Translations under genes and position numbers: made by a program | The notes under the pieces: model-generated | The model's input: the letters and a program-made list of their open reading frames with translations, nothing else | What the model was told of the DNA's origin: nothing | The model's database searches: none | Part shown: one piece after another, positions 40,808 to 60,293 of the stretch | Layout of the letters: each line of letters begins with the position of its first letter | How positions within the stretch are numbered: the first letter of the stretch is position 1 | From: Melioribacteraceae bacterium | Lineage (GTDB): Bacteria; Bacteroidota; Ignavibacteria; Ignavibacteriales; Melioribacteraceae | Direction: 5' to 3' | NCBI GenBank assembly: GCA_016342755.1 | Contig: JAEINS010000020.1 | Coordinates: 1-64,000, forward strand | Length of the DNA: 64,000 nucleotides

Positions 40808-43800
40808 ATGAATCTACACAAGCTTACTAAAAAGTTTGGTTTCCTGCTTGTTCTACTGGTGGTGTTAGCCGGTAGTACTTTTGCTCAAACCACTTTTTAT
40901 GTCAACAGAGACATAGGTTCTGACGGGCGTGATGGTTCGCAAGCAACCTTACTTGTGCCTGATGATGGTGTTACTGGTCCTAAATTGACCGTAACTGATG
41001 CTATGAACGGTGCTGTTGACGGTGATATTATTTCTGTTGCTTATTCTGCTTTAAATAAGTATGCCGAAGGTGATATTACTGTAACAAAAGAATTAACTTT
41101 CACATCTACCGGTGCAGGTACTCCTGTATTTACAGGTGGTTTAATAATTAACCAAGTTGCTGCTGGCGATGATGTTGAATTTATTGGTCCCTTTCATTTT
41201 GAAGCTGACGGTGTTGCAAACCTTGGACTTGATATGCAAGTGGGTGATTTAACAGGTGCTGATAATTTAACAATAGAAGAAAGTGTTCATTTATTAAATG
41301 ATACTTGGACTTTAAGTGGTCAGTTAAATTATGTTGGTGTTATCAACTTTGAATATGAAAACACAACTGCCGCTGCGATTGATTTTGTAACTGGTGATGA
41401 GTTTCCTGTAACTGCAAGTACTGGTGTTGTTACTAATCTTGATTTAACAAAAACTGGTGCAGGTGCTGTTACTCTTGAATTAAATGAAGATAAAACTATC
41501 AATGGTGTTTTAACTACTGCTGGTGCAGTTGATTTAGGTACTAATACATTATTTATAGCTGGTAACTCAGTTGCACATGCTATAGGTGGAGATGTTACTA
41601 ACGGTACTGTTGATTTTGACCTTGATGGTGGTAACGCAACTATTACTGGAGCTTTTGATTTAGATAATTTAGTAGTTGGTTCTACTGAAACTCCTGCGGT
41701 TGCTAGAACTTTAGCTGTTAACACTGTTGTTGAAATTAATAATGTAACTGCTAATAACAATGTTGTTACTGACTTAAACAACACTGGTGATATTCTTGGT
41801 AACTTAACTAATAATAGTTCCGGTGATATGACTACTGCTAATGATGGTGATATCGTTGGAAACGTTACATTAACTGGTGCTGGTAATATTACTCTAGATG
41901 CCGCAGGTGCAAATGCATCAGATATCGGTGGAAATATTTTAGTTTCCGGTACTGGTACTTTAACTTGGAATGATGGTGTTCTTGATAACATTAATGCTAT
42001 TAACGTTGGCGGTAATGTAGATTTAACAACTCAAGTTGATGTTTCTGCTGCTGGTAATGAAACTGGTTTAGCTTTAATTACCTTTATAGATGTTCCTGTT
42101 GTTGTTACTGGTGATGTAACAAATAGTTTTGATATTACCGGTACTACTGAAAATGCTGGTGATAATGATAATGATAATGGTATTATATTATTTGAAACTG
42201 ATGCTTCTGGTGATGTTACTCTTGGTAATGTTGTAAACGAATCAACAAACAATGTTGTTGTTGATGGAGGAAGTACTTCTGATAATAATGGTATTATAGA
42301 ATTCGATTTTGATGCTGCTGGTGCTGGTGGTGGTGCAACATTTACTGCTAAAGATATTACAAACTCTTCTTCTGCTAGCAACGTTGCTAGTGCTTCTGGT
42401 AATATTCAATTTAGTGGTACAACTGTTGACCCTATTGTAGTTGAAGATGTATTAAATACATCTAACACAACTATTGCTGCTAGTGGTTTAATTGATTTTG
42501 GTGGAACTGCTACAGGTGATTTCACTGCTAACTCAATTACAACATCTGGTTCTACAGATGGTGGTAATATTATAATTACAGATGGTACAGTTACTATAGT
42601 TAGAAATCCTTCTGCTACTGGTACTGTAACTAACTCTCGTACTGTTGCTGGTGCAGATATTGTATTTGGTCTTGGTACTACAGCAATACAGGGTAGTTTA
42701 ATAAATAGTGGTGCAGCTCTTATATCTTTTGATGCTACTGCTAATCCTGTTACTGTTACTTATGCTATTCAGTCTTCAGGTGCTGGTAATATAACTTTCG
42801 CTTCAATTGGTGGTGGTATTTCTGCCAATAGTGTAAGTTTAACCGGTTCTGGTGACATTTTAGCTGTTGCACATACAGGTTCTTTTACAGCATCTACAAC
42901 TACTGTAAACGGTACTGGTGCAGTTCTTGATTTATCTGCATCTCATACTGTTGCTCCTAGTTTTGGTGTTCTTACTATCACTGATGGTACTTTAGATGCA
43001 ACTGCTGCAACTGGTGTAGATTTTTCAACTAATTCATTTACAATGGATGGTGGAACTCTTAATTTAACTGGTGTTAATGCTGGTGCTGATGAAGATTTAT
43101 TAGTTGCTAACGGTTTTAGTTTAACTGGCGGTACTGTAGTTTTAACTGATATCCAAAACATAACAGTTTCTGGTACTTCTTTAGTTTATGGTGGTGTTTC
43201 TACTAACCCTACTGTTACATTAGGTGGTGCCACTACTGCTATAGTATTTGATGAACCAATTCCAAACGTTCTTCAAACTATGACTATTGGTGATAATTTC
43301 CCAGAATGGCCTGGTGATTTAAATGTAGCTAACCCTGCAAATATTTCTACTGTAGTTAGATTTACTGGTGGAAATTTAACTGTGCTTGAAGATGTTACAT
43401 TTAATACTAATAGTGTTTTAAATGCAATTCAAATTGATGGTGCAAAAATATATATAGGTGATAATAATCAACCTGCAACTGGTGGTACTTTTGCAAATAC
43501 AACAGGTTATACAACTGTAAACGATGGTCGTGTTGTAATGAGTGGTAGTCAAGCTCAGCAAGTAACACACGGTGGTGGTGCTGTTGTATTTGGTGGTTTC
43601 GAAGTTGATAACAATGCTGGAACTGCTGGTCCTGCTAATGCTGACGTTTATATTGGTGCTCAGGCAACTAATGAAGCAAATGCTGTATTTGATGATTTCT
43701 TCTATTTAGCTGAAGGTTCTGTTGAAGGTGCTGATATTTCTTTTAATGGTGCTTTACCTTATCCTACAATAGTAAGAAATAACGGTACTTTTTTAGTTGA

Positions 43801-46800
43801 ACCAACATGGGTTTCTAAAGTTAACATAACTTATATTGGTACAGAAAAAACTACTGCGTCTGAAGTTCCTACTACAGTTACTGTATTAAATAACATGACA
43901 ATCCAGACAACTAATCATACTGCTGGTGGTGCACAAGCTGGATACGGTGTTGTTTCTTTAGGTGCTAATGCACAGGTTAATGGTACTTTAACTGTTAAAG
44001 AGAAGCAAACTTTAGACTTAAACACTTTTGATTTAACTTTAGCCGGTTCTACAGTTGTATTAACTGGTGATATTGCTGGTGCTGCTGGTGATAAAGTTAT
44101 TTTAGCTGCTACTGCTGGTACTACTATTGATGGTGCTGGTTATTTACCAAACGTTGAAGTTGCTAACGGTTCTGTTGGTAACGTAATTACAGAAAATATT
44201 GCCGGTTTAGTAGATGATTTACTTAATGGCGATAATGATAGAAATAATAATGATGATACAACTCCTGATGCTTCTATCACTTATGCTGGTGGTGGTGCTG
44301 TTGCTGGTGATGCATCTGATTTAACAATCACATTCCCTGCATTAGCTGCTGCTCCTGCTCCTCAGTATCATTTTGCTAATTTAACAATGGCAGATGAATT
44401 TGAAACATTTACATTAGGTTCTAATGCTGCAATGATGGGTGATGCAACTTTCCATGGTACAACTGATCTTGGTACATTTACATTACAACACCAAGGTACA
44501 GCTCCTACATTTGATGGTACTTCTACAGTTGGTAATGGTACATTAGAATTTGTTACAACTGCTACAGATATTCAGGTAACAACATCTGCTGCTACTGTTG
44601 CTGCTAATGTTATTTTTGATGTTCCTGAAACTGCGGCTGCTCCAAATAGTAACGGTACAGTTACTTTTGATGTTGGTAATGCTGGACAAAATAGCTTAAC
44701 AATTACTGGTAATGTTACTCTTCAAGATGACGCTACAAGTAATGATAATAATGGTACTACTGTTGAAATTGGTAACGGTAAAACTTTAACATTAGCTGGT
44801 ACAAACGTTGATGTTGCTGCCAATTCTAATTTCACTGTAACTGGTGGTGCTGGTGTTGGTACAGGTTTACTTGTATTAAACGTTGCTGTTCCTAATACAT
44901 TATTAACTTATACAACAGCTGCTAATACTTCAGTTGCTAACTTAGAAGTTGCTGATGATGTAACTTTAGCTGGTGCTGTAGTTGGTAGTGATTTAACAGT
45001 TTATAATTTTACACACTCTGACGGTTTATTAACATTTGGTACTGCTGATTTAGTAGTTACTAATTTGTTTGATAGAACAGGCGATGGTACATATAATGGT
45101 GATGGTGTTTTACTTATTGATAACACTGTTCCTGTTGCAAACTTTAAACATGCTAATTTTGCAAGTCCAACAAACATGGTTATTAATAACCTAGAATTTG
45201 AAGCTGGTATTACAATGCAAAATGCTGGTGCACAACTTATTGTTGTTGAAAACTTAACAATTGATAATGTTGATGTAGATAACCAAGTTGCTGCTAGTGC
45301 TAGTTTAATTACTGTTGGTGATGCTACAACTGTTCCTACAGTTAAAGCTATTGGTGCTGGTGCTGATGTTAGTTCTAATCAGTTAACATTTGCTAATGCT
45401 AACGCTGACTTTGTATTTGAAGGTGCTGCATTTACTGTTGCAACTAACATTTGGCCAGAAGCTTCAACTGCTGATGGTATGGTTGCAAGAGACGTAACTG
45501 TTGATATGGTTGCTGCTGGTACTGTTTTAACTTTAACTGATAGCAGATATATTGGTGGAGACCTTGATCTTTTAGATGGTGTTCTTACTTGGGATAATCC
45601 TGATGTATTGGAAATTGCAAGTGGAAGTACTATTAAGAGAGTTAATGGTATGTTAGATAGAAATGCAAATGCAAATGCTGTAGTTGGTACATTAACTGCT
45701 CCTTTAGTTAACTTAGAATACCAAGGTGCATATGATACTGATATTGAGTATTCTTTACCTCTTGAGGTTAATAATTTTGAATTATTAACTGCTGCTTCTG
45801 TAATTGATATTGTTAGTCCGAGATCAACAGTTGGTGTTACTCCTTCAATTGATGGAGTTGTTACATTAGCTCTTGGGTCAGGAATCAATGTAGATGCAAA
45901 TACAACATTTACACAAGTATTAACAATTCCAGATGGCTCTTTAGTAGATGTAGGTGCTAATGTTGTTGCTCCTGCAAGTGCTACTGCAACTTTCCCAGCT
46001 GGTATTATTATTTCTCCAGATGCTGGTGCTGTTGCTCCTTTAGGTGGTAACTTAACTGTAACTAATGGTTTAGCTAATGTTACTGCTGCTGGTATTACTA
46101 ACAATGGTATGATTAATAATAACGAAGTTATTACTACTGTTGGTGGTTTAACAATGGGTACTTCTGCTGTTTATACTGGTACAGGTACTGATGTATTAAA
46201 CGCTGATTCTTTAGTAACTGCTGGTACAGTTAATTTAGAAGATGGTTCTGCAATTAACATGACTGGTAATGCTGTATTAGGTGGTGCATTAGATTTTAAT
46301 GCTGCTGCTGTTGCTGCTAACTTAGTATTTGCTACTTTAACTACTTCAGGTAACTTAAATATTACTGGAACTGTTGCAAATGGCAATAATCTTGACGTAG
46401 TATTTAACGCACTTGACGCAGATCAAGATGTTACTATACCTACTGCTGGTGTAACAGTTCACGATTTTACAATGAACCAAACATCTGCTGTAGTTCCTCC
46501 AAATGTTACAAAAAATATTGTTGAAGTAACTGGTGGTAACTTAGTAATTGATGGTACATTAAACTTAACACGCGGTATTTTAGATGCTGGTGATAATAAT
46601 GTATCTGTTAATTTAACTGTAAATGGTGCTGGAATTATTACTGGTACTGGTGTTAACAGAGCACTTGCTCATCCTACACATATATCGCATGTAGTTGGTA
46701 ATTTAGGAGTAAATATTCCTGTTGCTTCAATTGGTAGAATTGAATGGCCAGTTGGTGCTACAAATGGAGATTACAGACCAGTTGCAATTACATTTACAGC

Positions 46801-49594
46801 TGGAAACGCAACTATTACTGGAACAAGATTATCTGTTGGTCATGTTGATGGCGAACCAGCTGGTATTAAAGGTTTACCAGTAGATGGCGGTTTTAAATAT
46901 AATGTAGTACCACCAGTAGAAAACCAAATTGGTGGAAAAGCTCCTTATTCATGGTCAATAAGTGCAACTCCTAGTTTAGGTGCTTCTCAAGCTTATGACT
47001 TAGAATTAGTTGGAACTGAATTTGCAAGACCATTCCAAGAAGTTAATGATTTAAGAATCATTAAGAGATTTGATGGTGAAGTTACTGCAAATGCGTGGTT
47101 CTTACACGGAAGTAATGATAATTATACAAATATATTAGAAGAAAATAATCCTACTCCAGACGATACTCTAATTACTGTTAGAAATGTTGGTTCTACTGGT
47201 GGATTAGTTCCTCAAAAAGGATTCTTTACAATTGGTATTCCTACACAAGCTCCTATATTTACAACTGTTCCTGCAAATGCTGTTGTTGCTGAAGCTGATA
47301 GTGTAGATGCACAATTTGTAGCTGAAGATCAAGATGCAATTGCTTCTGCAATTCTGTATTCTGTTGAAGCTGTTACTCCTGTTATTCCAGATTCTACATA
47401 TTCAATTGATGAAACTGGTAAATTAACTTTCAAACCTAATTATGATTTAGGTTCTGTAGCTGGTACAATGTATGAATTTACAGTAAAAGCTACAAAAGCA
47501 ACTGATTCATTATCATTTGTAACAGTTATGGATACAATTACTGTTACTGACGTAAATAGAGTTCCTGTAGCTGGCGTTGTTCCTAGTGATACATCATTTG
47601 TTGCCGAAGGTTCAACACAAAGTTGGATATTAGCTGCTACTGATATGGATATTGATAATGGTGGTTTTGTATATGCATTACAAACTGTTGTACCTGCAAC
47701 TGGTGATATTACTTTAGTTGGAGATTCTTTAGCATTTGCTCCTGCATATGGTACAGATGGCAATTCTTATGAAGTAACTTTAAGAATTACAGATGTTCCA
47801 GTTGGTGGTGCATTATTTGTTGACACAACTTTAACATTTGTTGTTTCTAATACAAATAGAGCTCCTGTTATGGTTGAAATGGCTGATACTACTGTTGACG
47901 AAGGCGCAACTTTAGAATTAAACTTTGCTGCAAATACAACTGAGCCTGATGGTGATGCTGTAACATTTGCATTCAGTTTAACTAAAGGTGGTGTTGTAGT
48001 TGCTGATAGTGGTGCTATTGCAGCAGGTGTTTATACATGGGTTCCAAAATATAATCAAGCTGGTATTTATGAATTAGTTGTTACTGCCACTGATGATAGT
48101 TTACTTGCTGTGAAAGATACAGTTATGGTTACGGTTAATGATCTTAACGTAGCTCCTGTATGGGTAGCTGTACTGCCTACACAAACAGTATATGTTGGTG
48201 ATACATTAACATTCAATTACGATGCTGAAGATTTAGACATGGATGCTTTAACTTATGCATTTGTTGGAAATTTCCCAGCAGACGCGACTTTAGATGCCGC
48301 AACTGGTGAATTTAGCTGGGCTCCTAAAACAGCTTCTACATTCCCTGTTTTAATTAAAGTATCTGTTACAGACGGTATTACAACAATAAATACTCAGGCA
48401 GAAATAACTATCGAAGTTACTACTGTTGAAGTTGCTGGTGTTGTAACTTATGAAAATGCTGGTACTGACCCAATAAAAGATGCAACTGTTAAGTTAATGC
48501 AAGGTTCAGTGGTAGTTGATTCAACTACTACAGATTCAACTGGTGCATATAAATTTACAGAAGTAAATGGCGGTGAGTATTCTATAATGGTTTCTTCAGA
48601 AGCTGTATGGCCTACTTCTGCAGTATTAGCGTCTGACGCTTTATTAGCTGCACGCAGTTCTGTTGATACAACTGTTATGTTAACTGATATGCAAAAATTA
48701 GCTGGTGATGTAACTGATGATACTGCTGTTAACGCTTTTGACGCTCTTAAAATTCTACAAAGAGTTGTTAAAATGGTTGACAAGTTTGCTGTAGCTGACT
48801 GGCAGTTTGAAACTAAAGCTGCATTTACAGTTGGTACATCAAACGTAAATAAAGATTTCTTAGCAATTGCTGCTGGTGATGTTAACAAAAGTTATACAAT
48901 GGCTGGTGCTTTAGCAAAAGAAAATGTAACTGTAGTTGAAGAAGAAGCTTTAAGAATTGCTCCTAAAGCTGAATTTGAATTACCAATTAAATTAGATGCG
49001 GTTTCTGAAGTAAGCGCGTTCACATTTAGATTAGCTTACCAGTCTGACAAAATGGAATTAGTTTCTGTTGCATCTAAAGCTCAAGGTCTTATGTCTTCTG
49101 CAAAAGATGGTGTTATTTCTCTAGCATGGGCTGACTTAAGCGGTAATAAAGCTCTAGTATTAGAAGATGATGCTGTTGTAGTTCTTACTTTCAAAGCGAC
49201 TGAAGAATTTGCAAAATCTGAAACTGCTGGATTAACACTTGAACTAGGTGAAGTAGTTAACAAGTTAGGTAAAGATGTAAGTGCAAATATTTCATTACAG
49301 GGTGCTGAAATAGCAATACCTGAAAACTTTGCATTAAACCAAAACTATCCTAACCCATTCAATCCAACTACTACTATTGCATACGATATGCCGATTGCTG
49401 GTAAAGTAACTCTTAAAGTATTCAATACCTTAGGTCAGGAAGTTTCTACTATAGTAAATGAAGTTAGAGAAGCTGGAACTCACAAAGCTATATTTAATGC
49501 TACTAACATGGCAAGTGGTATCTACTTCTTCAACATTACGGTGGAAGGTACAAAGAACTTTGTACAAACTAAGAAAATGGTATTATTGAAGTAA
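40808..49594 (+). CDS. Giant T9SS-secreted surface protein: beta-helix-like repeats, Ig-like repeats, dockerin-like and cohesin-like modules
   Basis: From the ATG at 40808 (ribosome site tggaga) the protein is 2928 residues, with a 27-residue signal peptide ending in AGSTFAQ. The first mature residues (TFYVNRDIGSDGRDGSQA) match the opening of right-handed beta-helix proteins. Residues to about 2000 are Gly/Thr/Asn/Val/Ala-rich strand repeats like adhesins. Four Ig/cadherin-like repeats follow (about 2148-2540), then a carboxypeptidase-regulatory-like module (about 2542-2625), a dockerin-like segment (GDVTDDTAVNAFDALKILQR, about 2631-2700), a cohesin-like module (about 2716-2835) and a T9SS tail (NQNYPNPFNPTTTIAY; KKMVLLK). 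I saw no Cys anywhere. Probably a surface adhesin or matrix protein. Confidence 0.88.
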   Translation: MNLHKLTKKFGFLLVLLVVLAGSTFAQTTFYVNRDIGSDGRDGSQATLLVPDDGVTGPKLTVTDAMNGAVDGDIISVAYSALNKYAEGDITVTKELTFTSTGAGTPVFTGGLIINQVAAGDDVEFIGPFHFEADGVANLGLDMQVGDLTGADNLTIEESVHLLNDTWTLSGQLNYVGVINFEYENTTAAAIDFVTGDEFPVTASTGVVTNLDLTKTGAGAVTLELNEDKTINGVLTTAGAVDLGTNTLFIAGNSVAHAIGGDVTNGTVDFDLDGGNATITGAFDLDNLVVGSTETPAVARTLAVNTVVEINNVTANNNVVTDLNNTGDILGNLTNNSSGDMTTANDGDIVGNVTLTGAGNITLDAAGANASDIGGNILVSGTGTLTWNDGVLDNINAINVGGNVDLTTQVDVSAAGNETGLALITFIDVPVVVTGDVTNSFDITGTTENAGDNDNDNGIILFETDASGDVTLGNVVNESTNNVVVDGGSTSDNNGIIEFDFDAAGAGGGATFTAKDITNSSSASNVASASGNIQFSGTTVDPIVVEDVLNTSNTTIAASGLIDFGGTATGDFTANSITTSGSTDGGNIIITDGTVTIVRNPSATGTVTNSRTVAGADIVFGLGTTAIQGSLINSGAALISFDATANPVTVTYAIQSSGAGNITFASIGGGISANSVSLTGSGDILAVAHTGSFTASTTTVNGTGAVLDLSASHTVAPSFGVLTITDGTLDATAATGVDFSTNSFTMDGGTLNLTGVNAGADEDLLVANGFSLTGGTVVLTDIQNITVSGTSLVYGGVSTNPTVTLGGATTAIVFDEPIPNVLQTMTIGDNFPEWPGDLNVANPANISTVVRFTGGNLTVLEDVTFNTNSVLNAIQIDGAKIYIGDNNQPATGGTFANTTGYTTVNDGRVVMSGSQAQQVTHGGGAVVFGGFEVDNNAGTAGPANADVYIGAQATNEANAVFDDFFYLAEGSVEGADISFNGALPYPTIVRNNGTFLVEPTWVSKVNITYIGTEKTTASEVPTTVTVLNNMTIQTTNHTAGGAQAGYGVVSLGANAQVNGTLTVKEKQTLDLNTFDLTLAGSTVVLTGDIAGAAGDKVILAATAGTTIDGAGYLPNVEVANGSVGNVITENIAGLVDDLLNGDNDRNNNDDTTPDASITYAGGGAVAGDASDLTITFPALAAAPAPQYHFANLTMADEFETFTLGSNAAMMGDATFHGTTDLGTFTLQHQGTAPTFDGTSTVGNGTLEFVTTATDIQVTTSAATVAANVIFDVPETAAAPNSNGTVTFDVGNAGQNSLTITGNVTLQDDATSNDNNGTTVEIGNGKTLTLAGTNVDVAANSNFTVTGGAGVGTGLLVLNVAVPNTLLTYTTAANTSVANLEVADDVTLAGAVVGSDLTVYNFTHSDGLLTFGTADLVVTNLFDRTGDGTYNGDGVLLIDNTVPVANFKHANFASPTNMVINNLEFEAGITMQNAGAQLIVVENLTIDNVDVDNQVAASASLITVGDATTVPTVKAIGAGADVSSNQLTFANANADFVFEGAAFTVATNIWPEASTADGMVARDVTVDMVAAGTVLTLTDSRYIGGDLDLLDGVLTWDNPDVLEIASGSTIKRVNGMLDRNANANAVVGTLTAPLVNLEYQGAYDTDIEYSLPLEVNNFELLTAASVIDIVSPRSTVGVTPSIDGVVTLALGSGINVDANTTFTQVLTIPDGSLVDVGANVVAPASATATFPAGIIISPDAGAVAPLGGNLTVTNGLANVTAAGITNNGMINNNEVITTVGGLTMGTSAVYTGTGTDVLNADSLVTAGTVNLEDGSAINMTGNAVLGGALDFNAAAVAANLVFATLTTSGNLNITGTVANGNNLDVVFNALDADQDVTIPTAGVTVHDFTMNQTSAVVPPNVTKNIVEVTGGNLVIDGTLNLTRGILDAGDNNVSVNLTVNGAGIITGTGVNRALAHPTHISHVVGNLGVNIPVASIGRIEWPVGATNGDYRPVAITFTAGNATITGTRLSVGHVDGEPAGIKGLPVDGGFKYNVVPPVENQIGGKAPYSWSISATPSLGASQAYDLELVGTEFARPFQEVNDLRIIKRFDGEVTANAWFLHGSNDNYTNILEENNPTPDDTLITVRNVGSTGGLVPQKGFFTIGIPTQAPIFTTVPANAVVAEADSVDAQFVAEDQDAIASAILYSVEAVTPVIPDSTYSIDETGKLTFKPNYDLGSVAGTMYEFTVKATKATDSLSFVTVMDTITVTDVNRVPVAGVVPSDTSFVAEGSTQSWILAATDMDIDNGGFVYALQTVVPATGDITLVGDSLAFAPAYGTDGNSYEVTLRITDVPVGGALFVDTTLTFVVSNTNRAPVMVEMADTTVDEGATLELNFAANTTEPDGDAVTFAFSLTKGGVVVADSGAIAAGVYTWVPKYNQAGIYELVVTATDDSLLAVKDTVMVTVNDLNVAPVWVAVLPTQTVYVGDTLTFNYDAEDLDMDALTYAFVGNFPADATLDAATGEFSWAPKTASTFPVLIKVSVTDGITTINTQAEITIEVTTVEVAGVVTYENAGTDPIKDATVKLMQGSVVVDSTTTDSTGAYKFTEVNGGEYSIMVSSEAVWPTSAVLASDALLAARSSVDTTVMLTDMQKLAGDVTDDTAVNAFDALKILQRVVKMVDKFAVADWQFETKAAFTVGTSNVNKDFLAIAAGDVNKSYTMAGALAKENVTVVEEEALRIAPKAEFELPIKLDAVSEVSAFTFRLAYQSDKMELVSVASKAQGLMSSAKDGVISLAWADLSGNKALVLEDDAVVVLTFKATEEFAKSETAGLTLELGEVVNKLGKDVSANISLQGAEIAIPENFALNQNYPNPFNPTTTIAYDMPIAGKVTLKVFNTLGQEVSTIVNEVREAGTHKAIFNATNMASGIYFFNITVEGTKNFVQTKKMVLLK

Positions 49595-49616
49595 TTCAAT
49601 TATCATAAATGGAAGT

Positions 49617-49653
49617 AAGGGTTAAGAAATTAACCCTTCTTCTTTTCTTTTTT
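49617..49653 (+). terminator. Terminator hairpin with GAAA loop between the two large T9SS genes
   Basis: aagggttaa (49617-49625), loop gaaa, ttaaccctt (49630-49638), then a pyrimidine/T-rich tail to 49653. It sits 22 bases after the giant gene stop, so the next gene may have its own promoter or depend on read-through. Confidence 0.75.
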
Positions 49654-49685
49654 AATTAAATTTTTATCATGTGAGGAAAAAGTAT

Positions 49686-52600
49686 ATGAAAAAATTCATC
49701 TCATTGCTGAGCATTATATTATTGTTCTTCACTTGTACTATTAGTGGCCAAACCACCGTGAGTATTCCTGATACAACTGTGGCTGAGAATGTCGAAGTTT
49801 TACTTCCAGTAAAATCCGGCGCTCTTGCTGAAGTTGGATCATTTAGTTTGAATATTGCTTTTGATACTACTGCAGTTGAATATAAGGGTATAGAAAATAA
49901 TGTATTTACAACTGGAACTTTTATTGTTAATGATACAACCGATGCCGGTGTTCTTTATATTGGCTGGTTTGGTACTGATGCAGTTGAAGTTACAGATAAA
50001 TTATTTGACCTTAAATTTCAATACAAAAGTGGTTCAAGTGCCGTTCAGTTCACGGGTTCAAACGAAATAACAGATCTTAATAATATTCCATATACAGTTA
50101 ATTTTGTGAATGGAAGTGTGGGTTCAGTACCTGCTGCTTTAGGTCTTGGTGAAGTAACTGGTGAAAGTGGAGATACAGTTAAGGTTCCATTTAATGCTGT
50201 TAATTTAGAAGGCATTGGTTCAATGGGATTTTATATAAATTATGATACTGCAGCTGTTGAGTATGTTGGTTTAACTGATGATATAGTCGGTTTTACTGCT
50301 ACTCCAATGGAAACTGCAGATGGTCAGGTTATTTTAACCTGGATTTCAATTACTGGGACTCCTTTTACTTTAGAAGAGGGTGTTTTAGTTAATTTAAATT
50401 TTGTTATTAAGGCTGGTACAACAGATTTAACATTTGTTGCTCCCACTGAAATAACTGATACAGAAAATAATGTTTTAGCTTTGGTACCAACAAATGGAAA
50501 AATCACTGAAGATGTTCCTCCAGCGTTGGTTCCTAGTTTAATTTTAGGTAAAGTTTTAGCTAATCTGGGTTCAGATGTTGTTGTACCAATGAATGCGGTT
50601 GCTATTGAGGATTTAGCTTCTTTTACTATGACTATAGCATTTGATACAGCAGTTGTAAGCTTTGTTGAAGTTCAGAATGTTGCTGCTGGAACATTAGTTG
50701 CAAATGCTGAAAATGGTATTTTGAATTTAGCCTGGTTTGATACAACTCCTTATGCTGAAACTGAAGGTAAATTTGCTGATTTAGTTTTCAATTATAAAAG
50801 TGGAACTTCTGCTCTTGATTTAGAAGCTGCACAAATCACTGATATTAATGGTGCTTCATTAGCTATTACTTTAGTTGACGGTAGTGTTATGTTAAATCCT
50901 AACGTTGCTCCTGTTATTACAGCTCCAGAATCAATGAGTTTTGTTGAAGGTGCTAATGTTTTAGTTCCATTAACAACAAGCGATATAAATAGTGATGTAT
51001 TAACTGTTACAGCTATTGAAGATTTACCTGAAGGTAGTTCAATTTCTCCAACAGCATTATTTATTAATAATGCGGGCGTAAGTGCCGGTTCTTATACTTT
51101 CACTTTAGTTGTTAGTGACGGTATGGCAACTGATACTGCTGTTACAACAGTTAATGTTACAGAATATATGGCTCCTAAAGCTATAGATTACTGGAAAAAA
51201 ACTGTTTCATTTGGTATGTCAGGTCAATCAGTTCAATATTCTGCTGTTGATGGTGAAGGCAAAGTATGGGCTACTAATTATGGTGTTCCTGGTGAAGTTG
51301 GTTTGTATGTATTTAATTCAGATACAACACAGGCATCTTTTAGTCCTATTACTACTGGTCTTAATGAAAATGGTGAAGTTATTGAGCTTTCCCAGGTTGG
51401 TGGTGTTGCATATTCTGATGGTGTTATATATGCTATTTCTTATGCAACCAAAACAGTTGTTAAATATAATGCGGCTGATGGTACACCATTAAATGGATGG
51501 ACTCTTGCATTTAGTCCTGGTGATCTTGATATAGATGTTTCTGGAAATATATACGTTGGAAATAAAGTTGCTGCAATGTTTAGTGTTTTCAACAGCGAAG
51601 GTATTGAATATAAAGGTTCACCAGTTGGTGTTGCCGGATGGCATATTAACAGAGGACTTAGTGTTACTCGTGATGGATCTAAAGTATTCTTAGCTGACGA
51701 AAGCAGTGATAAAATTGCTATGTTTGAAGGTGGCATTGTTTCTTCTGATTCATGTGCATTTGTTGCTGGTGAAGATTTCAAAAATTCTGGATTAACTGAT
51801 CCTAAAGCATGTGAAATTGATCCATTTGGCAGAATGTGGATTTCTGATTATGGTAATAATAGAGTTCTGATATATGGTTTAGATAAAACTCTTATTCAGG
51901 AAATATCTATTACTAACCCTGATGGAGCCGCATTTGATTACGAAAATGGACTTGCTTACATTAATCATTTTGGTGGCGATAACATGATTTCGCAATTTAT
52001 TGCGAGTTATCCTGATGCTGAGTTGCCATTGATTGAAGCTGCGACAGATGGAACATTAGATCAAGAATGGACATCGAATGCACTTGGTGGTGATATAACT
52101 TTAACAGTTGTTGACTCTACTGCTAGCGCATGGGGTAGCCATATTGTTCGTTATGACGATGCTGGTTATACTGGATTAGCGCTTATCAAAAAAACATTTG
52201 AGGAAAGTTATACAGTTTCTTCTGATATATATCTAGAAGGCGAAGTTTCTGAAACATTCCCATTATATACTGGAATTGCTATTAAATCTGCTGTTGATGA
52301 ATTAAAATATTATAGATTCATCTATAGAAATTCTTCTACTGATATGGGTCAGTTAAAACTTCAGGGTTATGATGGTGCTAGCTGGCACATTTCTAAAACC
52401 TGGAATGTTGGAACTGAAATTGATCAATTAGAAACTGGATGGCATAATTTTAAAGTAGCTGTTGATGGAAGTAAATTATATGTTTATATGGATAACCAGT
52501 TATTAGCCGGAAGTCCTATTCAGCTTACTGAAGCAGAAGCATTCTTAACTAAAGGTATGCCTGGTATCTACGTATATAATACTGCTAATGGTTATGTTGA

Positions 52601-53528
52601 TTTTGATAACTTTACAGTTGCTGAAAATAAACAATTAGAATATTCTATTGCTGATGTTCAGACTCCTGCTGATTCAACTGGCGATTCTCAACTTAAAGGT
52701 GAATACGTAATTACTGGTGGTATTGTTACTGCTGTTGAATTGGATGGCGACGGAAATGTTAAGCAATATTTCATTCAAGATGCACCTGGTGCATGGAATG
52801 GTGTTTTAGTATATGATCAATCAACTGTTGCAGTTGGAGATTCACTATATTTCCAAGGTATGGTTGATGAGTATTATGACAAAACTGAACTTAAACTTGT
52901 TAGTGGTTTAAGAATAGTTGCAAGTGGTATTGCTTTACCTGAAGCTGTTGCTTTAGCTAATACTGCTGATGTTAATAATGAAATGTATGAAGGTGTTCTT
53001 GTTTCTATTCAAAGTGCACAATGTATAGAAGGTAACAATAATTATGGTGAAGCAAAATTTGATGATGGATCTGGTTCTGTTATGACTGATGATTTGTTAA
53101 CTGATGCTTTCCCATTTGTTGTTGATGAATTCTATGATATTATTGGTGTTGTTGATTATTCATTTAATAACTTCAAAATTCTTTACCGTTCTGGTGAAGG
53201 TTCTGATATTACTGATATAAATGATCAAGATGAAAGTGAAACATTACCTGTTGAATTTGCTTTGGATCAAAACTATCCAAACCCATTCAACCCGACTACA
53301 AATATCAAATTTGCGCTAAAAGTTGACTCTAAAGTAACATTAAGCATTTATAATGTGCTTGGTGAGCAAGTAGCTAACTTAGTTAATGAAGATATGGCAG
53401 TTGGTGTTAAAACTGTTAATTTCAATGCTATTAGTCTTTCAAGTGGAATTTATTTCTACAGACTGGAAGCAAGAGGAAATGATGGTTCTAACTTCATAGA
53501 TGTTAAGAAGATGACTTTGTTAAAATAG
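49686..53528 (+). CDS. T9SS-secreted multimodular protein with three cohesin-like domains
   Basis: From the ATG at 49686 (ribosome site gagga; a GTG at 49671 is the alternative) the protein is 1280 residues with a signal peptide ending ISGQ. Three cohesin-like modules lie at about 23-146, 150-274 and 283-401; they share FDTTAVEYKGI-type, ADLVFNYKSG-type and EITD-type strands. An Ig-like module (408-500), a propeller-like region with NHL-type repeats (about 505-790), a lectin/LamG-like region (about 800-960), an OB-like DUF5689-type segment (about 975-1140) and a T9SS tail (DQNYPNPFNPTTNIKF; KKMTLLK) follow. It is the adjacent downstream gene to the giant protein, probably a partner on the surface. 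Confidence 0.85.
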   Translation: MKKFISLLSIILLFFTCTISGQTTVSIPDTTVAENVEVLLPVKSGALAEVGSFSLNIAFDTTAVEYKGIENNVFTTGTFIVNDTTDAGVLYIGWFGTDAVEVTDKLFDLKFQYKSGSSAVQFTGSNEITDLNNIPYTVNFVNGSVGSVPAALGLGEVTGESGDTVKVPFNAVNLEGIGSMGFYINYDTAAVEYVGLTDDIVGFTATPMETADGQVILTWISITGTPFTLEEGVLVNLNFVIKAGTTDLTFVAPTEITDTENNVLALVPTNGKITEDVPPALVPSLILGKVLANLGSDVVVPMNAVAIEDLASFTMTIAFDTAVVSFVEVQNVAAGTLVANAENGILNLAWFDTTPYAETEGKFADLVFNYKSGTSALDLEAAQITDINGASLAITLVDGSVMLNPNVAPVITAPESMSFVEGANVLVPLTTSDINSDVLTVTAIEDLPEGSSISPTALFINNAGVSAGSYTFTLVVSDGMATDTAVTTVNVTEYMAPKAIDYWKKTVSFGMSGQSVQYSAVDGEGKVWATNYGVPGEVGLYVFNSDTTQASFSPITTGLNENGEVIELSQVGGVAYSDGVIYAISYATKTVVKYNAADGTPLNGWTLAFSPGDLDIDVSGNIYVGNKVAAMFSVFNSEGIEYKGSPVGVAGWHINRGLSVTRDGSKVFLADESSDKIAMFEGGIVSSDSCAFVAGEDFKNSGLTDPKACEIDPFGRMWISDYGNNRVLIYGLDKTLIQEISITNPDGAAFDYENGLAYINHFGGDNMISQFIASYPDAELPLIEAATDGTLDQEWTSNALGGDITLTVVDSTASAWGSHIVRYDDAGYTGLALIKKTFEESYTVSSDIYLEGEVSETFPLYTGIAIKSAVDELKYYRFIYRNSSTDMGQLKLQGYDGASWHISKTWNVGTEIDQLETGWHNFKVAVDGSKLYVYMDNQLLAGSPIQLTEAEAFLTKGMPGIYVYNTANGYVDFDNFTVAENKQLEYSIADVQTPADSTGDSQLKGEYVITGGIVTAVELDGDGNVKQYFIQDAPGAWNGVLVYDQSTVAVGDSLYFQGMVDEYYDKTELKLVSGLRIVASGIALPEAVALANTADVNNEMYEGVLVSIQSAQCIEGNNNYGEAKFDDGSGSVMTDDLLTDAFPFVVDEFYDIIGVVDYSFNNFKILYRSGEGSDITDINDQDESETLPVEFALDQNYPNPFNPTTNIKFALKVDSKVTLSIYNVLGEQVANLVNEDMAVGVKTVNFNAISLSSGIYFYRLEARGNDGSNFIDVKKMTLLK

Positions 53529-53913: not shown

Positions 53914-54732
53914 ATGGTTGCCACAATGAATTCTGAAAAGAAAAAAATATCCGTTATTATACTTTGCGGTGGGCAAGGTACACGACTAAGAGAGGAAACA
54001 GAATACAAACCCAAGCCTATGGTGGAAATTGGAGGAAAGCCGATTCTTTGGCATATAATGAAAATATATTCTTTCTATGGTTTCAATAACTTTATACTTG
54101 CATTAGGATACAAAGGATATTTGATCAAAAATTATTTCTTGAATTATAAATATTATAATAATGACTTTACACTTGATATGGGCAAAAATGGTTTTACGTT
54201 GCACGAAAAAAATGGGACTTCAGAAAAAAATTGGACAATAACATTTGTGGATACTGGAGAAAATTCCATGACCGGTGCCAGAATAAAAAATTGTTCAAAG
54301 TATATTAATACAGAAAATTTTGCAGTAACTTATGGAGATGGAGTTTCGAATGTAAATTTAGAGAAAGAATTTCAATTCCATGTAGATCATAATAAAGCCG
54401 TAACAATGTTAGGTGTTAATCCATTATCCAAATTTGGAGAACTAGTTATTGACGGTGATCAGGTAATGAATTTTAGTGAAAAGCCACAGGTAAATAGTTC
54501 TATTATTAATGGTGGATATTTTTTCATGAAGAAGCGATTTCTAAACTACTTAGACACCTCAGCTAATTGTATTCTGGAAAATGGGCCTTTAGAAAAGGCT
54601 TCATTGGATGGAGAAGTTATGATCTATAAACACCGTGATGAATGGTATTGCATGGATACATATCGCGATTATTTATTTTTAAATGATATGTGGGGAAAGA
54701 ATAAAAGACCATGGGCCATATGGGAAAAATGA
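53914..54732 (+). CDS. rfbF: Glucose-1-phosphate cytidylyltransferase
   Basis: The 272-residue protein makes CDP-glucose from glucose 1-phosphate and CTP. It has the nucleotidyltransferase start ILCGGQGTRLREETEYKPKP, then MVEIGGKPILWHIMKIYSFY, FAVTYGDGVSNVN and a C-terminal DRDYLFLNDMW-type ending typical of RfbF. It should feed CDP-activated deoxysugar synthesis for a surface glycan. The start may be 53914 or the ATG at 53926. The SDR gene overlaps its stop (atga), marking translational coupling. Confidence 0.9.
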   Translation: MVATMNSEKKKISVIILCGGQGTRLREETEYKPKPMVEIGGKPILWHIMKIYSFYGFNNFILALGYKGYLIKNYFLNYKYYNNDFTLDMGKNGFTLHEKNGTSEKNWTITFVDTGENSMTGARIKNCSKYINTENFAVTYGDGVSNVNLEKEFQFHVDHNKAVTMLGVNPLSKFGELVIDGDQVMNFSEKPQVNSSIINGGYFFMKKRFLNYLDTSANCILENGPLEKASLDGEVMIYKHRDEWYCMDTYRDYLFLNDMWGKNKRPWAIWEK

Positions 54733-55781
54733 ATTCAAAAATAGACATTCGCAAAATTTTAGTTACTGGTTCCGAGGGATATATTGGATCAGTTTTGATG
54801 CCACTACTAGTTGAAAAAGGATATGAAATAACCGGATTGGATACCTGCTTTTATTCGGCTGGAAATTTCGACAAAAAATTAAATGTTAATTACAATTTAC
54901 TGAAGAAAGATATTAGAGATATTTCTGAAGATACTCTTGAAAACTTTGATGCAGTTATACATTTGGCTGCTCTAAGCAACGATCCACTTGGTATGTTAGA
55001 TGAAAAACTAACTTTTGATATTAACTATACCGCATCGTTAGAACTGGCAAAAATGGCTCGAAAAGTGGGTGTAAAAAGATTTGTTTTTTCAAGTTCATGT
55101 TCTTTATATGGATATTCTAATAATGTTTTAACTGAGAAAGATATACCAAATCCACAAACTGCTTATGGTAAATCGAAAATAATGGCAGAACGAGAAATAT
55201 CAAAATTGGCTGATGATCATTTTAGTCCTGTTTTTTTAAGAAACGCAACAGCTTTTGGAATTTCTCCGAGAATGCGATTTGATTTAGTTGTAAACAGTCT
55301 AACCGGTTTTGCAAAAACAAAAAATGAAATTAGAATATTAGGCGATGGTACACCCTGGAGACCTTTAGTTCATGTAAATGATATTAGTAACGCAATAATA
55401 ACTGTTTTGCGGGCATCAAAGAGCGTTATTCATAATCAGGCTTTTAATGTTGGCTCAAATAAAGAGAATTATCAAATAAAAACAATAGCCGAATGTGTTA
55501 AAAAACAATATAGTAATTGTGAAGTTAGAATAATGCAAAAAATGGCTAGTGATACAAGAAACTACTCTGTTTCATTCAATAAATTGAATTCTGAGTTGGG
55601 ATTTAATTCTGAAATTTCTCTTGAAGAAGGAATTGCAATAAATGCATCATGTTATGAAAAAATTATGCTGAATAAAGCAATCTTTGAATCTTCTCTTTAC
55701 ACAAGACTAAAACAAATTGAATTGCTGATCGATCAAAAAAAAATCGATAAAAAACTGCGATGGATAAATAATGAATTTTGA
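54729..55781 (+). CDS. NAD(P)-dependent sugar epimerase/dehydratase (extended SDR)
   Basis: The 350-residue protein (from the ATG at 54729 that overlaps the rfbF stop) has the nucleotide-binding GSEGYIGSVLMPLL near residue 15, VIHLAALSNDPLG, a Ser-rich strand FSSSCSLYGYS and the catalytic Y-x3-K in AYGKSK. It should oxidise or epimerise an NDP-hexose for the polysaccharide. A CDP-glucose 4,6-dehydratase (RfbG) would be expected after rfbF; this protein does not look like a classic RfbG to me, so the exact step is open. The next gene starts 11 bases before its stop. Confidence 0.82.
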   Translation: MNSKIDIRKILVTGSEGYIGSVLMPLLVEKGYEITGLDTCFYSAGNFDKKLNVNYNLLKKDIRDISEDTLENFDAVIHLAALSNDPLGMLDEKLTFDINYTASLELAKMARKVGVKRFVFSSSCSLYGYSNNVLTEKDIPNPQTAYGKSKIMAEREISKLADDHFSPVFLRNATAFGISPRMRFDLVVNSLTGFAKTKNEIRILGDGTPWRPLVHVNDISNAIITVLRASKSVIHNQAFNVGSNKENYQIKTIAECVKKQYSNCEVRIMQKMASDTRNYSVSFNKLNSELGFNSEISLEEGIAINASCYEKIMLNKAIFESSLYTRLKQIELLIDQKKIDKKLRWINNEF

Positions 55782-56286
55782 AAAAACCATTATAGACGGA
55801 GTTTTTATAATAACCACTGAACCATTTATTGACGAACGTGGTTTTTTTGAACGTATTTATTGTAAAAAGGAATTCTCTAATATTGTAGATCCCAAAGAAT
55901 TTGTTCAGTTTAATCATTCTTTTACAAAAGAAAAAGGTACAATACGTGGATTACATTATCAATTGCCACCCAAAAAGGAACGAAAAATAGTTAAGTGTAT
56001 TCGTGGTAAAATTTTTGATGTTGTAGTAGATGTTAGGGCAAATAGCCCAACTTATTTTCAGTGGATAGCTGTTGAACTTAGCGATAAAAATAGAAAAATG
56101 ATTTACATTCCGGAAGGATGCGCACATGGATTTCAGACATTAGTGAATAATTGTGAACTTATTTATTTTCATACACAGTATTATTGCAAAGAGTTAGAAA
56201 AGAGTATCTTTTATAATGATTTGAAATTGAATATTGGCTGGCCAATGACAGTAACAAAAATCTCCGAAAAAGATTTAAATGCATAG
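55771..56286 (+). CDS. RmlC/RfbC-like sugar 3,5-epimerase family protein
   Basis: The 171-residue protein has the dTDP-4-dehydrorhamnose 3,5-epimerase pattern: FIDERGFFERIY, KGTIRGLHYQLPP with the catalytic His, KIVKCIRGKIFDVVVDVR, and IPEGCAHGFQTL. The strand normally reading Y-K-x-T-D-x-Y reads YFHTQYY here, so the Asp of that motif is replaced. It may be a one-site epimerase or isomerase variant acting on a CDP- or dTDP-4-keto sugar rather than full RmlC. It overlaps the SDR gene by 11 bases. Confidence 0.85.
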   Translation: MNFEKTIIDGVFIITTEPFIDERGFFERIYCKKEFSNIVDPKEFVQFNHSFTKEKGTIRGLHYQLPPKKERKIVKCIRGKIFDVVVDVRANSPTYFQWIAVELSDKNRKMIYIPEGCAHGFQTLVNNCELIYFHTQYYCKELEKSIFYNDLKLNIGWPMTVTKISEKDLNA

Positions 56287-56314
56287 TGAATAATAATTAT
56301 TTGGTGACTAAAAA

Positions 56315-57544
56315 TTGAAATGTAGATTTTGTAATAATGAATTAAAACATGTTTTTTTAGACTTAGGCTATTCTCCTCCATCTAATGCATTCTTAAATTT
56401 GAAACAACTTAATGAGCCTGAGATTCATTATCCACTAAGGGTATTTGTTTGTGAAAAGTGTTATCTAGTGCAATCCAGCACAACACATAATTCTAGCGAA
56501 ATATTTAATAAAGACTATGTGTATTATTCGTCTTATTCAAAGAATTGGTTGAGTCAGTCTAAAAAATATACTGAATACATGATTAATAGATTTCATTTAT
56601 CAAGTGAATCTTTTGTTTTGGAAGTTGCTTCAAACGATGGTTATTTGTTACAATATTTTGCTAATAGCGGAATTCCGGTTTTAGGAATTGAACCTTCATC
56701 TGGTCCCGCAGAAATTGCTTTATCTAAAGGAATTCCAACTGAAATTACTTTTTTCGGATCAGCATGTGCAAAAAAATTAAAAGCTAAAGGTGTGCAGAGT
56801 GATTTGATAGTTGCCAATAATGTAATTGCTCATATTCCTGATATTAATGATTTTGTATCAGGATTTAAATATGTATTAAAGGAAGAGGGAATTATTACGC
56901 TCGAATTCCAGCACCTTGTTAATATAATATCAGAAATTCAATTTGATACAATATACCATGAGCATTATTATTATCACTCTCTTATAACGCTGAACAAGAT
57001 TTTTCTTAAGAATGATCTCGAAATTTTTGATATTCAATGCCTGACCTCACATGGAGGATCGTTACGAGTTTTTGCTAAAAACAAAAGTAATAAAACTTAT
57101 GCAGCTACAGAAAGATTTAAAAAGTTGTTGAAAAAAGAAGAACAGATTGGAATTAATAGACTTGAGTATTATCAAGGATTTCAATTAAGAGTTAATGATA
57201 TCAAAAATAAATTATTAGCCTTTCTTATTACGACAAAAAACAATAATCATTCAGTAATTGGATACGGTGCCGCTGCAAAAGGTAATACATTAATAAATTA
57301 TTGTGGTATAAAAAAAGACTTACTAAATTATGTTGTTGATGCTTCTCCTCATAAAGTAGGATTATTTTTACCTGCTTCCCATATTCCGGTTTACGATAGA
57401 AGCATGATAACAAAAACCAAGCCTGATTATGTCTTAATTTTACCATGGAATCTGAAAGATGAAATTATGACAGAACATTCATATATAGAAGAATGGGGTG
57501 GCAAATTTGTAATTGCTATTCCTGATTTAACTGTATTAAATTAA
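56315..57544 (+). CDS. Sugar C-methyltransferase (SAM-dependent, TylCIII/NovU-like)
   Basis: The 409-residue protein starts with TTG at 56315 (KCRFCNNELKHVFLD, with a ggtga ribosome site). A zinc-binding N-terminal domain (C-x2-C ... C-x2-C, VFVCEKCYLVQ) is followed by a methyltransferase core (VLEVASNDGYLLQYFA, GIEPSSGPAEIA) and a C-terminal domain (VIGYGAAAKGNTLINYCGI). This is the three-domain layout of NDP-hexose C-3-methyltransferases, which make branched 3-C-methyl deoxysugars. The SAM-binding glycine loop reads E-V-A-S-N-D-G as usual for this family. Donor nucleotide is inferred to be CDP from rfbF. Confidence 0.88.
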   Translation: MKCRFCNNELKHVFLDLGYSPPSNAFLNLKQLNEPEIHYPLRVFVCEKCYLVQSSTTHNSSEIFNKDYVYYSSYSKNWLSQSKKYTEYMINRFHLSSESFVLEVASNDGYLLQYFANSGIPVLGIEPSSGPAEIALSKGIPTEITFFGSACAKKLKAKGVQSDLIVANNVIAHIPDINDFVSGFKYVLKEEGIITLEFQHLVNIISEIQFDTIYHEHYYYHSLITLNKIFLKNDLEIFDIQCLTSHGGSLRVFAKNKSNKTYAATERFKKLLKKEEQIGINRLEYYQGFQLRVNDIKNKLLAFLITTKNNNHSVIGYGAAAKGNTLINYCGIKKDLLNYVVDASPHKVGLFLPASHIPVYDRSMITKTKPDYVLILPWNLKDEIMTEHSYIEEWGGKFVIAIPDLTVLN

Positions 57545-57568
57545 AGAGAAATCCATTGGAGAATAAAA

Positions 57569-58693
57569 ATGATACCGGTCTTTAAGCCTTTAATAGAGAA
57601 AGAAGAAATAGATGCAGCTGTTGGTGCGTTAGAAATGGGTTGGCTAGGAATGGGCAAATTTGTAAACGAATTTGAAAATAAAATAAAACAAATTATCGGT
57701 GCAGATGATAGGGAAGTAATTGCTGTTGGAACTGGTACGGCTGCAATACATTTGGCGTTATTGATTGCTGGAATTGGTCCTGGTGATGAAGTAATTACTC
57801 CCTCCTTTAATAATGTTTGCGATTTTCAGTCAATATTAACTACTGGAGCAGAAGTTGTTTTTTGCGATATTGATGAAAATTCATTATGTATTGATCTAGA
57901 AAGCGCAGAAAAACTGATAACCAGCAAAACTAAGGCAATTATTGCAATGGATTATGACTGTGTTTTATGTGAACATGATAAGTTAGGTGAATTGGCTAAA
58001 AAATACAACTTACGTGTAATACATGATGCATCACATTCTTTTGGTTCAAAGTACAAAGGAAAAATGGTTGGTAGTTTCTCCGATATTACAACATTTAGTT
58101 TTGATCCAGTAAAAACAATTACCTGTATTGATGGCGGAGCAATAGTAGTAAAATCAGAAGAAGAAAAAAAAATTCTTCATGAGATGAGATTGGTGGGAAT
58201 GATGCAACCAGCAGATATAATGTATGAGAATAAACGAGCCTGGACTTATGATGTTCAGAGAGTTGGATATCGTTATCATATGGCAAATCTTCATGCCGCT
58301 ATCGGATTATCACAATTAGAAAAGTTTGATGAAATTTCCCGAAATAGATTTAATTTATGTAATTACTACTCTAAAAAGTTAAAGAATATTCCAGAAATAA
58401 TAATTCCTAAAACAGATTTTCAAGGAATAACACCATTTCTATATTATATAAGAGTTCCAGCAGAATCGAGAGATGAACTGAGAAACTATTTATATTCAAA
58501 CGGAATAGATACTGGAATTCACTGGCAACCGGGACACTGGTTTTCATTATTAAAAAATTGTCGCAAGAGTGATTTATCAATTACAAATAAAATTGGAGAA
58601 GAAATATTATCTCTTCCATTGCATTCAGATATGAGCCTGGAAACAGTTGACATAATTATTAATGCGATTAAATTCTTTTTCAATAAACGATGA
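57569..58693 (+). CDS. DegT/DnrJ/EryC1/StrS-type aminotransferase
   Basis: The 374-residue PLP enzyme has the family start IPVFKPLIEKEEIDAAV, AVGTGTAAIHLALL, DEVITPSFNN, IHDASHSFGSKYKGKM with Asp and His for cofactor, and the PLP Lys in TFSFDPVKTITCIDGGA. It transfers an amino group from glutamate to a 3- or 4-keto NDP-sugar. The sequence at the usual H-x-Y-G position (MDYDCVLCEHDKL) is not typical, but the PLP Lys and aromatic stack are present. It lies 24 bases after the C-methyltransferase gene. Confidence 0.88.
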   Translation: MIPVFKPLIEKEEIDAAVGALEMGWLGMGKFVNEFENKIKQIIGADDREVIAVGTGTAAIHLALLIAGIGPGDEVITPSFNNVCDFQSILTTGAEVVFCDIDENSLCIDLESAEKLITSKTKAIIAMDYDCVLCEHDKLGELAKKYNLRVIHDASHSFGSKYKGKMVGSFSDITTFSFDPVKTITCIDGGAIVVKSEEEKKILHEMRLVGMMQPADIMYENKRAWTYDVQRVGYRYHMANLHAAIGLSQLEKFDEISRNRFNLCNYYSKKLKNIPEIIIPKTDFQGITPFLYYIRVPAESRDELRNYLYSNGIDTGIHWQPGHWFSLLKNCRKSDLSITNKIGEEILSLPLHSDMSLETVDIIINAIKFFFNKR

Positions 58694-58696
58694 ACG

Positions 58697-59476
58697 ATGA
58701 TGAATAAACAAGAACAAATGATAGAATTTTGGTCCAAAAGAGCAAATCAATATAAGAACGATCCTCGTGCAAATACTAATGATATTTGGTTGAGAGAACT
58801 TGAAATAAAGTATATTAACCAAATAATATCAAAAAACTCCTTTAATTCAATACTAGATTTTGGGTGTGCTAATGGATATACAACTACCAAGTTATTTAAG
58901 TTAAATCCTAGCCTAACTATAACCGGCATTGATATAAATAAAGAAATGATTGAACTAGCAAAAAACAATATTGATGAAAGCATGGAGGGTAAGTTAAATT
59001 ATCTTGTTAAAGATTTACTTAACAAGGGAAAAATCTCTGAAAAATATGATTTTATTTATTGTGTTAGGGCAATTCAAAATATTGAATCTCAAGAAAAACA
59101 GAAAAACATTACTAACATTCTAATTGAAATGTTAAATGATGGTGGGAAACTATTATATATAGAATCCTATGAAAAATATTATGAACTATTGAATAAAGAT
59201 AGAGAAGAACTTGGTTTAGAAGGGTTGCCAATTCATAAACATCTAACTTTATTAGATGAGGAATTTGATAGTTATGTTTCATCGAAACTACAATTTATTT
59301 CCGAAACATTTTTAGCCTCATCTTATTACCTAGTTACAAGATTATTGTATTCAAAAATGGCGAAAGAAAATCAAGAAAAGATAGATTATACTCATCAAAT
59401 TCATGAAATCGCTTCAAAATTACCTCAAATTGGTAATTATGGCCCACTCAAAGCAATGTTATTCCAAAAAAAATGA
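58697..59476 (+). CDS. Class I SAM-dependent methyltransferase
   Basis: The 259-residue protein has the SAM-binding loop SILDFGCANGYTTTKLF near residue 52, the acidic end of strand 2 in ITGIDINKEMIELAK, and the strand-4 motif KYDFIYCVRAIQNIE. Methylation target unknown; in this context a sugar or lipid carrier is likely. It starts three bases after the aminotransferase stop. A start at either Met of the MM pair is possible. Confidence 0.82.
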   Translation: MMNKQEQMIEFWSKRANQYKNDPRANTNDIWLRELEIKYINQIISKNSFNSILDFGCANGYTTTKLFKLNPSLTITGIDINKEMIELAKNNIDESMEGKLNYLVKDLLNKGKISEKYDFIYCVRAIQNIESQEKQKNITNILIEMLNDGGKLLYIESYEKYYELLNKDREELGLEGLPIHKHLTLLDEEFDSYVSSKLQFISETFLASSYYLVTRLLYSKMAKENQEKIDYTHQIHEIASKLPQIGNYGPLKAMLFQKK

Positions 59477-59483
59477 GGATACT

Positions 59484-60272: not shown

Positions 60273-60293
60273 TTATAAAGTTTGAGGTTAATA

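Follow-up and report, generated by a model that had tools for sequence, protein, structure and literature searches.

Cohesin and dockerin modules in two adjacent genes with type IX secretion tails from a Melioribacteraceae bacterium

Genes A and B and their cohesins

We analyzed two adjacent genes, here called A and B, in a 64,000-nucleotide stretch of DNA from a Melioribacteraceae bacterium (Bacteroidota, Ignavibacteria; GenBank assembly GCA_016342755.1, contig JAEINS010000020.1, positions 1 to 64,000), hereafter the window. Each gene encodes a large, probably secreted protein that ends in a sorting domain of the type IX secretion system (T9SS); the A protein carries a dockerin and a cohesin, and the B protein carries three cohesins. 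A cohesin and its dockerin form a strong protein coupling that can be engineered, and such pairs are mainly known from the cellulosomes of Gram-positive bacteria. All parts of genes A and B described below lie on the forward (+) strand, and coordinates are those of the window.

Gene A (40808..49594) is predicted to encode a secreted giant of ~2930 amino acids, its start being placed from a signal peptide (MNLHKLTKKFGFLLVLLVVLAGSTFAQ) recognized by eye and from comparison with the homologue L050. The protein consists of a long repetitive N-terminal part, Ig-like domains assigned by Pfam (Big_9 and He_PIG, 47855..48420), an X/dockerin unit, a cohesin, and a T9SS type A sorting domain (49346..49582). 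The repetitive region (40889..47300, ~2100 amino acids) opens like its homologues with '(Y/F)VN..xGxD' and is probably parallel beta-helix or adhesin-like; it has no Pfam assignment, a scan of 40790-47300 having returned zero matches. No enzymatic domain was found in Pfam scans of the gene A protein.

Gene B (49686..53528) follows on the same strand after ~90 bases and is predicted to encode a secreted protein of ~1280 amino acids, its likely start being marked by a signal peptide also recognized by eye. Its three Pfam-assigned cohesins (49752..50120, 50130..50510, and 50517..50894) start right behind the signal peptide, and the T9SS type A sorting domain (53274..53480) lies at the other end. 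In between are a weak, below-cutoff match to the Ig-like domain He_PIG (50907..51161) and, within 51200..53050, a propeller-like region with weak SGL/NHL matches, all below full cutoffs, a possible ConA-like region, and a partial match, below the full cutoff, to the OB-like N-terminal part of ExeM/NucH.

The modules that the initial annotation had described as cohesin-like, one in A and three in tandem in B, are genuine cohesins. The Pfam cohesin family (PF00963, cutoff 24.1 bits) was exceeded in each protein, with 41.5 bits for the A cohesin scanned alone (48917-49330; domain at 48923..49321) and 79.3 bits over three stretches for the gene B protein. The A cohesin was not reported in the whole-protein Pfam scan and was found by a single-domain scan and a genome search. 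The miss is presumably an effect of bias correction in a repetitive protein, so absences in that whole-protein scan were not trusted. An AlphaFold2 model of 48425-49330, for which 18 natural homologues were aligned, had a mean predicted local distance difference test (pLDDT) score of 91.1 and a predicted template modeling (pTM) score of 0.88. Structural comparison with solved cohesins covered the A cohesin, and residues 167-299 of this model matched cohesin 6kgc with a VIA Z of 15.2 and a root mean square deviation (rmsd) of 2.2 Å over 130 aligned residues. The T9SS tails that the initial annotation had assigned to both proteins also held, since PF18962 and TIGR04183 scored above cutoff in A and in B. 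The source genome has 147 T9SS tail matches.

An apparently embedded dockerin with an atypical first calcium loop

The dockerin of gene A is genuine but atypical. It lies behind the first part of an X-like module, a transthyretin (TTR)/CarboxypepD-like beta-sandwich (48428..48597), and its core (48599..48790) comprises helix 1 (SDALLAARSSV), a linker helix, a calcium loop, and helix 3. The calcium loop GDVTDDTAVNAFD (48704-48742), the short sequence AAGDVNKSY (48869-48895), and the cohesin after it were located where the initial annotation had placed them. Scored alone against dockerin type I (PF00404, cutoff 22.9 bits), the window dockerin reached 13 bits and fell below the cutoff; several homologous dockerins passed it, the best with 45.2 bits. 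It belongs to a well-conserved domain family of ~100 residues. Against profiles of homologues from which the window sequence had been left out, the whole protein scored 83 to 143 bits and the segment 88 to 151 bits; among 498 shuffled versions of the segment, the highest score was 10. The family profile A1 matched solved dockerins (4fl4_A, 2e-10; 1ohz, 7.6e-8), and a profile including the N-terminal part matched X-dockerin dyads from scaffoldins of clostridia (4wi0, 3.9e-6; 2b59, 8e-4). The dockerin claim is thus upheld by the leave-out profiles and the matches to solved dockerins, although the Pfam score of the sequence itself is sub-threshold.

The 161-residue X-dockerin unit was modeled with a pLDDT of 96.5. 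It aligned with the TTR-like domain 5aq0 at 80 of 81 residues over the range 1-150 (Z 8.7, rmsd 1.6), and TTR-like domains aligned across residues 1-150 took up the VIA list, with no isolated dockerin among the matches listed. Foldseek listed the X-dockerin structures 4wi0 and 2b59 at an rmsd of about 12. This outcome is no evidence against a dockerin. Because ~80 residues align across 150 and helices 69-114 are the dockerin, we infer from the model that the dockerin is inserted between strands of a transthyretin-like domain, whose closing strands and terminal GDVNKSY (48875-48895) occupy 48800..48895. This arrangement would differ from the clostridial X-dockerin, in which the dockerin stands behind the X module.

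Calcium loop 2 is present and has Thr as its third residue, and loop 1 is discontinuous. Of a calcium loop, the N-terminal half-motif xVNSTDALL retains the end and lacks the start. At the C-terminus of the unit, the G and D of GDVNxS are invariant in 30 of 30 sequences; D152 of this motif and D71 (model numbering) are both among the invariant residues. When GDVNxS was computationally moved to the front, the score as an ordinary dockerin rose in all 30 sequences, from a mean of 35.1 to 44.6 bits, compared with a mean of 36.7 bits for a shuffled-tail control. We therefore propose that the first calcium loop may be split or permuted, its start being displaced to the C-terminal GDVNxS. AAGDVNKSY, read in the initial annotation as a partial second loop, is instead the conserved C-terminus of the domain and behaves like a displaced start of loop 1. 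A search of titles and abstracts found no natural permuted dockerin.

Conservation of the gene pair and dockerin proteins in relatives

Genes ending in dockerin, cohesin, and T9SS tail are here called DOC-COH-T9 genes. A same-strand cohesin-bearing gene directly followed in 31 of 56 testable cases overall and in 16 of 19 in Ignavibacteriales (15 of 18 without the window); since the homologous loci were selected for holding the module, these proportions do not come from an unbiased sample. The downstream gene often carried four cohesins in Bacteroidota loci.

Nine further loci, picked for having both features, have related arrangements in which the dockerin is an ordinary two-loop one. Five of them (G006, G008 [Melioribacter roseus], G015, G030, and G099, Melioribacteraceae) have a giant DOC-COH-T9 gene followed by cohesin genes, with an ordinary contiguous two-loop dockerin in the slot of the embedded one. 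The other four (G022, G067, G112, and G119, same order) are close variants, for example with cohesins ahead of the dockerin. The M. roseus locus (chromosome ~577-592 kb, L199) resembles the window in that cohesin-T9SS genes stand behind a giant DOC-COH-T9 gene; it differs in that its dockerin, an ordinary tandem of two loops (GDVGGDGNIASDDAS...ADVNNDGIIGAYDAA), has no TTR domain around it, and in that its downstream genes have one or two cohesins.

In a cohesin tree with many weak forks and unsettled bootstrap values, the dockerin-adjacent (A-type) cohesins clustered (39 of 41) apart from the cohesins of neighboring proteins (B-type), and the A-type cluster spanned Ignavibacteria to Bacteroidota. 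A Pfam cohesin was present in 18 of 20 genomes with a strong dockerin and in 46 of 93 others (Fisher p = 6e-4, an optimistic value because the genomes are related). In all, 64 of 113 genomes had a cohesin match, and most of these lacked a strong match to this dockerin family.

In the window, as in G005, miaB and rpiA lie next to the gene pair; in G031 rpiA does. Behind the pair in G031, G005, and G108 comes an ATP-binding cassette (ABC) cluster that, read by eye, resembles gldA-type genes. At the same place directly 3' of gene B, the window (53914-63998, and L194) has a surface-glycan biosynthesis cluster with genes for a nucleotidyltransferase, an epimerase, a dTDP-sugar isomerase, a C-methyltransferase, a DegT aminotransferase, a rhamnosyl O-methyltransferase/CmcI-like protein, and fused glycosyltransferases. 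In three Bacteroidota loci (L166, L170, and L184), tandem genes each end in dockerin-cohesin-T9SS, suggesting chains of such proteins. The Bacteroidetes metagenome-assembled genome RA.bin97 has many loci with this dockerin family (L141, L144, L172, L178, L180, and others) and is a candidate for an expanded system. Plasmid transfer of the module was considered, and no match was found in plasmids.

Dockerins of this family also occur in proteins without a T9SS tail. About 46 proteins in homologous loci, a few of them perhaps near-duplicates and a few cut at their start, end no more than 25 residues past the dockerin; most are secreted. Those scanned with Pfam included NodB-type polysaccharide deacetylases, DMFA2_C, CotH kinase, CARDB, and C39-like peptidase proteins. 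Nine loci (L059, L060, L061, L096, L097, L098, L099, L101, and L113) encode NodB-type deacetylases that end in the embedded dockerin and have neither a T9SS tail nor an adjacent cohesin gene; four were assigned by Pfam, and the others because they resemble these in size and layout. The tail-less dockerin genes of L062, L106, and L137 adjoin a cohesin gene that is T9SS-tailed where its end is covered. The L106 cohesin is B-type in the tree, and the L062 cohesin is outside the tree. These small operons (L062:350-9265, L106:5256-11385, and L137), in which C-terminal-dockerin proteins (DMFA2_C, CotH kinase) stand beside a one-cohesin protein, are possible cargo-carrier pairs. Most other tail-less dockerin genes had no neighboring cohesin gene within the stretch examined.

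Genome inventory, proposed surface assembly, and alternatives

The source genome (4.73 Mb) has eight recognized cohesins in four open reading frames and one dockerin. Profile searches found no dockerin in it other than that of gene A. Two weak PF00404 matches elsewhere in the genome (C11 and C34) each proved on reading to be a lone calcium-loop motif within an unrelated secreted protein and were rejected as dockerins. The genome also encodes a second three-cohesin T9SS protein (L045:4255-7494, contig C34), of 1080 amino acids with Kre9/KNH-like and Big_9 domains, whose cohesins are nearest to cohesin 1 of gene B.

The cohesin and dockerin modules, the T9SS tails in both proteins, and the conserved gene neighborhood together make an assembled T9SS-anchored cohesin/dockerin complex likely. 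A and B would both be exported by the T9SS and anchored on the outer surface, where B would display its three B-type cohesins from its N-terminal end, at a distance from the anchor at its other end. After export, the A dockerin would dock onto a B cohesin, probably in a Ca2+-dependent manner, and one B could collect up to three A proteins, giving a surface fiber or sheath. We infer this binding, as well as the choice of partner, the stoichiometry, and a role in adhesion, from the modules and their arrangement.

We favor, with moderate confidence, a surface assembly of adhesin-like proteins in which the A dockerin is held by the B cohesins and which is non-cellulosomal in this organism, because the genome has eight cohesins and one dockerin, its GH9 genes carry no dockerin, and the window's genes for a glycoside hydrolase (GH94) and for transport can be understood without a surface complex. 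The frequent adjacency of DOC-COH-T9 and cohesin genes, the same architecture with ordinary dockerins in other Melioribacteraceae, the co-occurrence of strong dockerins and cohesins by genome, the separate tree clusters of A-type and B-type cohesins, and the tail-less dockerin genes that neighbor a one-cohesin T9SS gene in L062 and in L106 also speak for this reading. Several points weigh on the other side. The window dockerin is degenerate, with Thr in place of Asn at calcium position 3 and with A-S and A-F instead of S-T at the positions of the recognition residues of clostridial type I dockerins, so its affinity may be low. The cohesins may be purely structural beta-sandwiches, the A dockerin may interact in cis with its own adjacent cohesin, and operon inheritance alone could keep genes A and B together; the adjacency counts, as noted, come from loci chosen for the module.

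Self-association of A is a rather improbable alternative. The dockerin would bind the A-type cohesin ~20 residues downstream, either in cis as a clasp or in the next A protein to form a chain, and B would be a separate cohesin adhesin. Dockerins in T9SS-tailed proteins are, with few exceptions, fused to a cohesin of the A-type, and these cohesins form one cluster from Ignavibacteria to Bacteroidota; the confident AlphaFold2 model of the whole block (pTM 0.88) also fits. On the other hand, ~46 proteins carry a dockerin that neither a cohesin nor a tail follows, the cohesin gene beside a tail-less dockerin gene in L106 is B-type, and a ~20-residue tether may not reach far enough for a complex in cis.

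Somewhat less probable still is that the modules are relic folds, retained as spacers in large surface proteins after mutual binding was lost. The degenerate calcium and recognition residues of the window dockerin would fit such a loss, as would the wide presence of cohesin folds in the order, mostly without a strong dockerin of the family. Across the dockerin family overall, however, the calcium-loop and recognition residues (DVNN..VNSTDAL) are strongly conserved, and in M. roseus, among others, an ordinary dockerin stands in this slot.

The initial annotation had also seen a possible link to cellulose. Gene B, with three cohesins, does qualify as a multi-cohesin scaffoldin, the window holds GH94 and a sodium:solute symporter, the genome has four GH9 matches, and a T9SS cellulosome-like complex has been proposed in Cloacimonadota (PMC8542988). 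The only dockerin of the genome, however, sits on gene A, for whose protein no enzymatic domain was found. The GH9 genes carry no dockerin, the best of them also has no T9SS tail, Pfam scans of A and B found no carbohydrate-binding module (CBM), and genome searches found no dockerin-bearing enzymes, polysaccharide-degrading ones included. M. roseus, which is cellulolytic and has the same locus, was reported in its 2013 genome paper to have cellulases without dockerin or scaffoldin domains (PMC3534657), in agreement with a non-cellulase role. A cellulosome-like enzyme complex tied to cellulose use is thus very improbable, and this reading is largely refuted for the genome.

The initial annotation had called the arrangement new, which holds in part. 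Williams et al. 2021 inferred from Cloacimonadota genomes a cohesin scaffoldin whose C-terminal domain is of T9SS type, together with dockerin-tailed enzymes (PMC8542988), so the general idea of a T9SS-anchored cohesin/dockerin design is not new. For the gene pair with a DOC-COH-T9 gene and for the embedded split dockerin, no description was found in the literature searched, which covers few subscription papers. For the cellulosome-like complex of Candidatus Stygibacter (Cloacimonadota; PMC8542988), genomes likewise point to dockerin proteins and to a large cohesin scaffoldin that a T9SS-type C-terminal domain would attach to the surface. Its dockerins, however, are C-terminal on enzymes (GH18, GH57, S8, and C25) and its scaffoldin has CBMs, whereas the only dockerin here is on a giant in which no enzymatic domain was found, fused to a cohesin and a T9SS tail, beside a separate multi-cohesin neighbor. 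With the clostridial cellulosome (the CipA X-dockerin dyad, type I and II cohesins) the window shares the cohesin fold, the dockerin sequence family, and the linkage of the dockerin to a beta-sandwich X module; it differs in anchoring by T9SS rather than by S-layer homology (SLH) domains or sortase and in having no enzymes and no CBM3. The noncellulosomal cohesins of Archaeoglobus fulgidus (2xdh) and Clostridium perfringens (NagJ) match in fold and sequence and are likewise used outside cellulose degradation, but are unlike the conserved two-gene T9SS locus with its dockerin-cohesin fusion.

The tail-less dockerin proteins of relatives and other Bacteroidota hint at a wider docking system. Tentatively, and with rather low confidence, the TTR-embedded split-loop dockerin might serve phylum-wide to let secreted proteins that have no T9SS signal, such as the NodB deacetylases and CotH kinase proteins of relatives, ride on or be captured by cohesin-bearing T9SS proteins, as piggyback type IX secretion or surface capture. 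A search of titles and abstracts for T9SS 'piggyback' found nothing pertinent.

Genes A and B represent a conserved T9SS-anchored surface locus of Ignavibacteria, present also in the cultured M. roseus and with similar pairs in Bacteroidota, and here with a dockerin that appears structurally rearranged. If the proposed binding is true, the locus would be a non-cellulosomal use of the cohesin–dockerin pair and would offer a testable route by which tail-less proteins may get to the outer surface of T9SS bacteria or be retained there.

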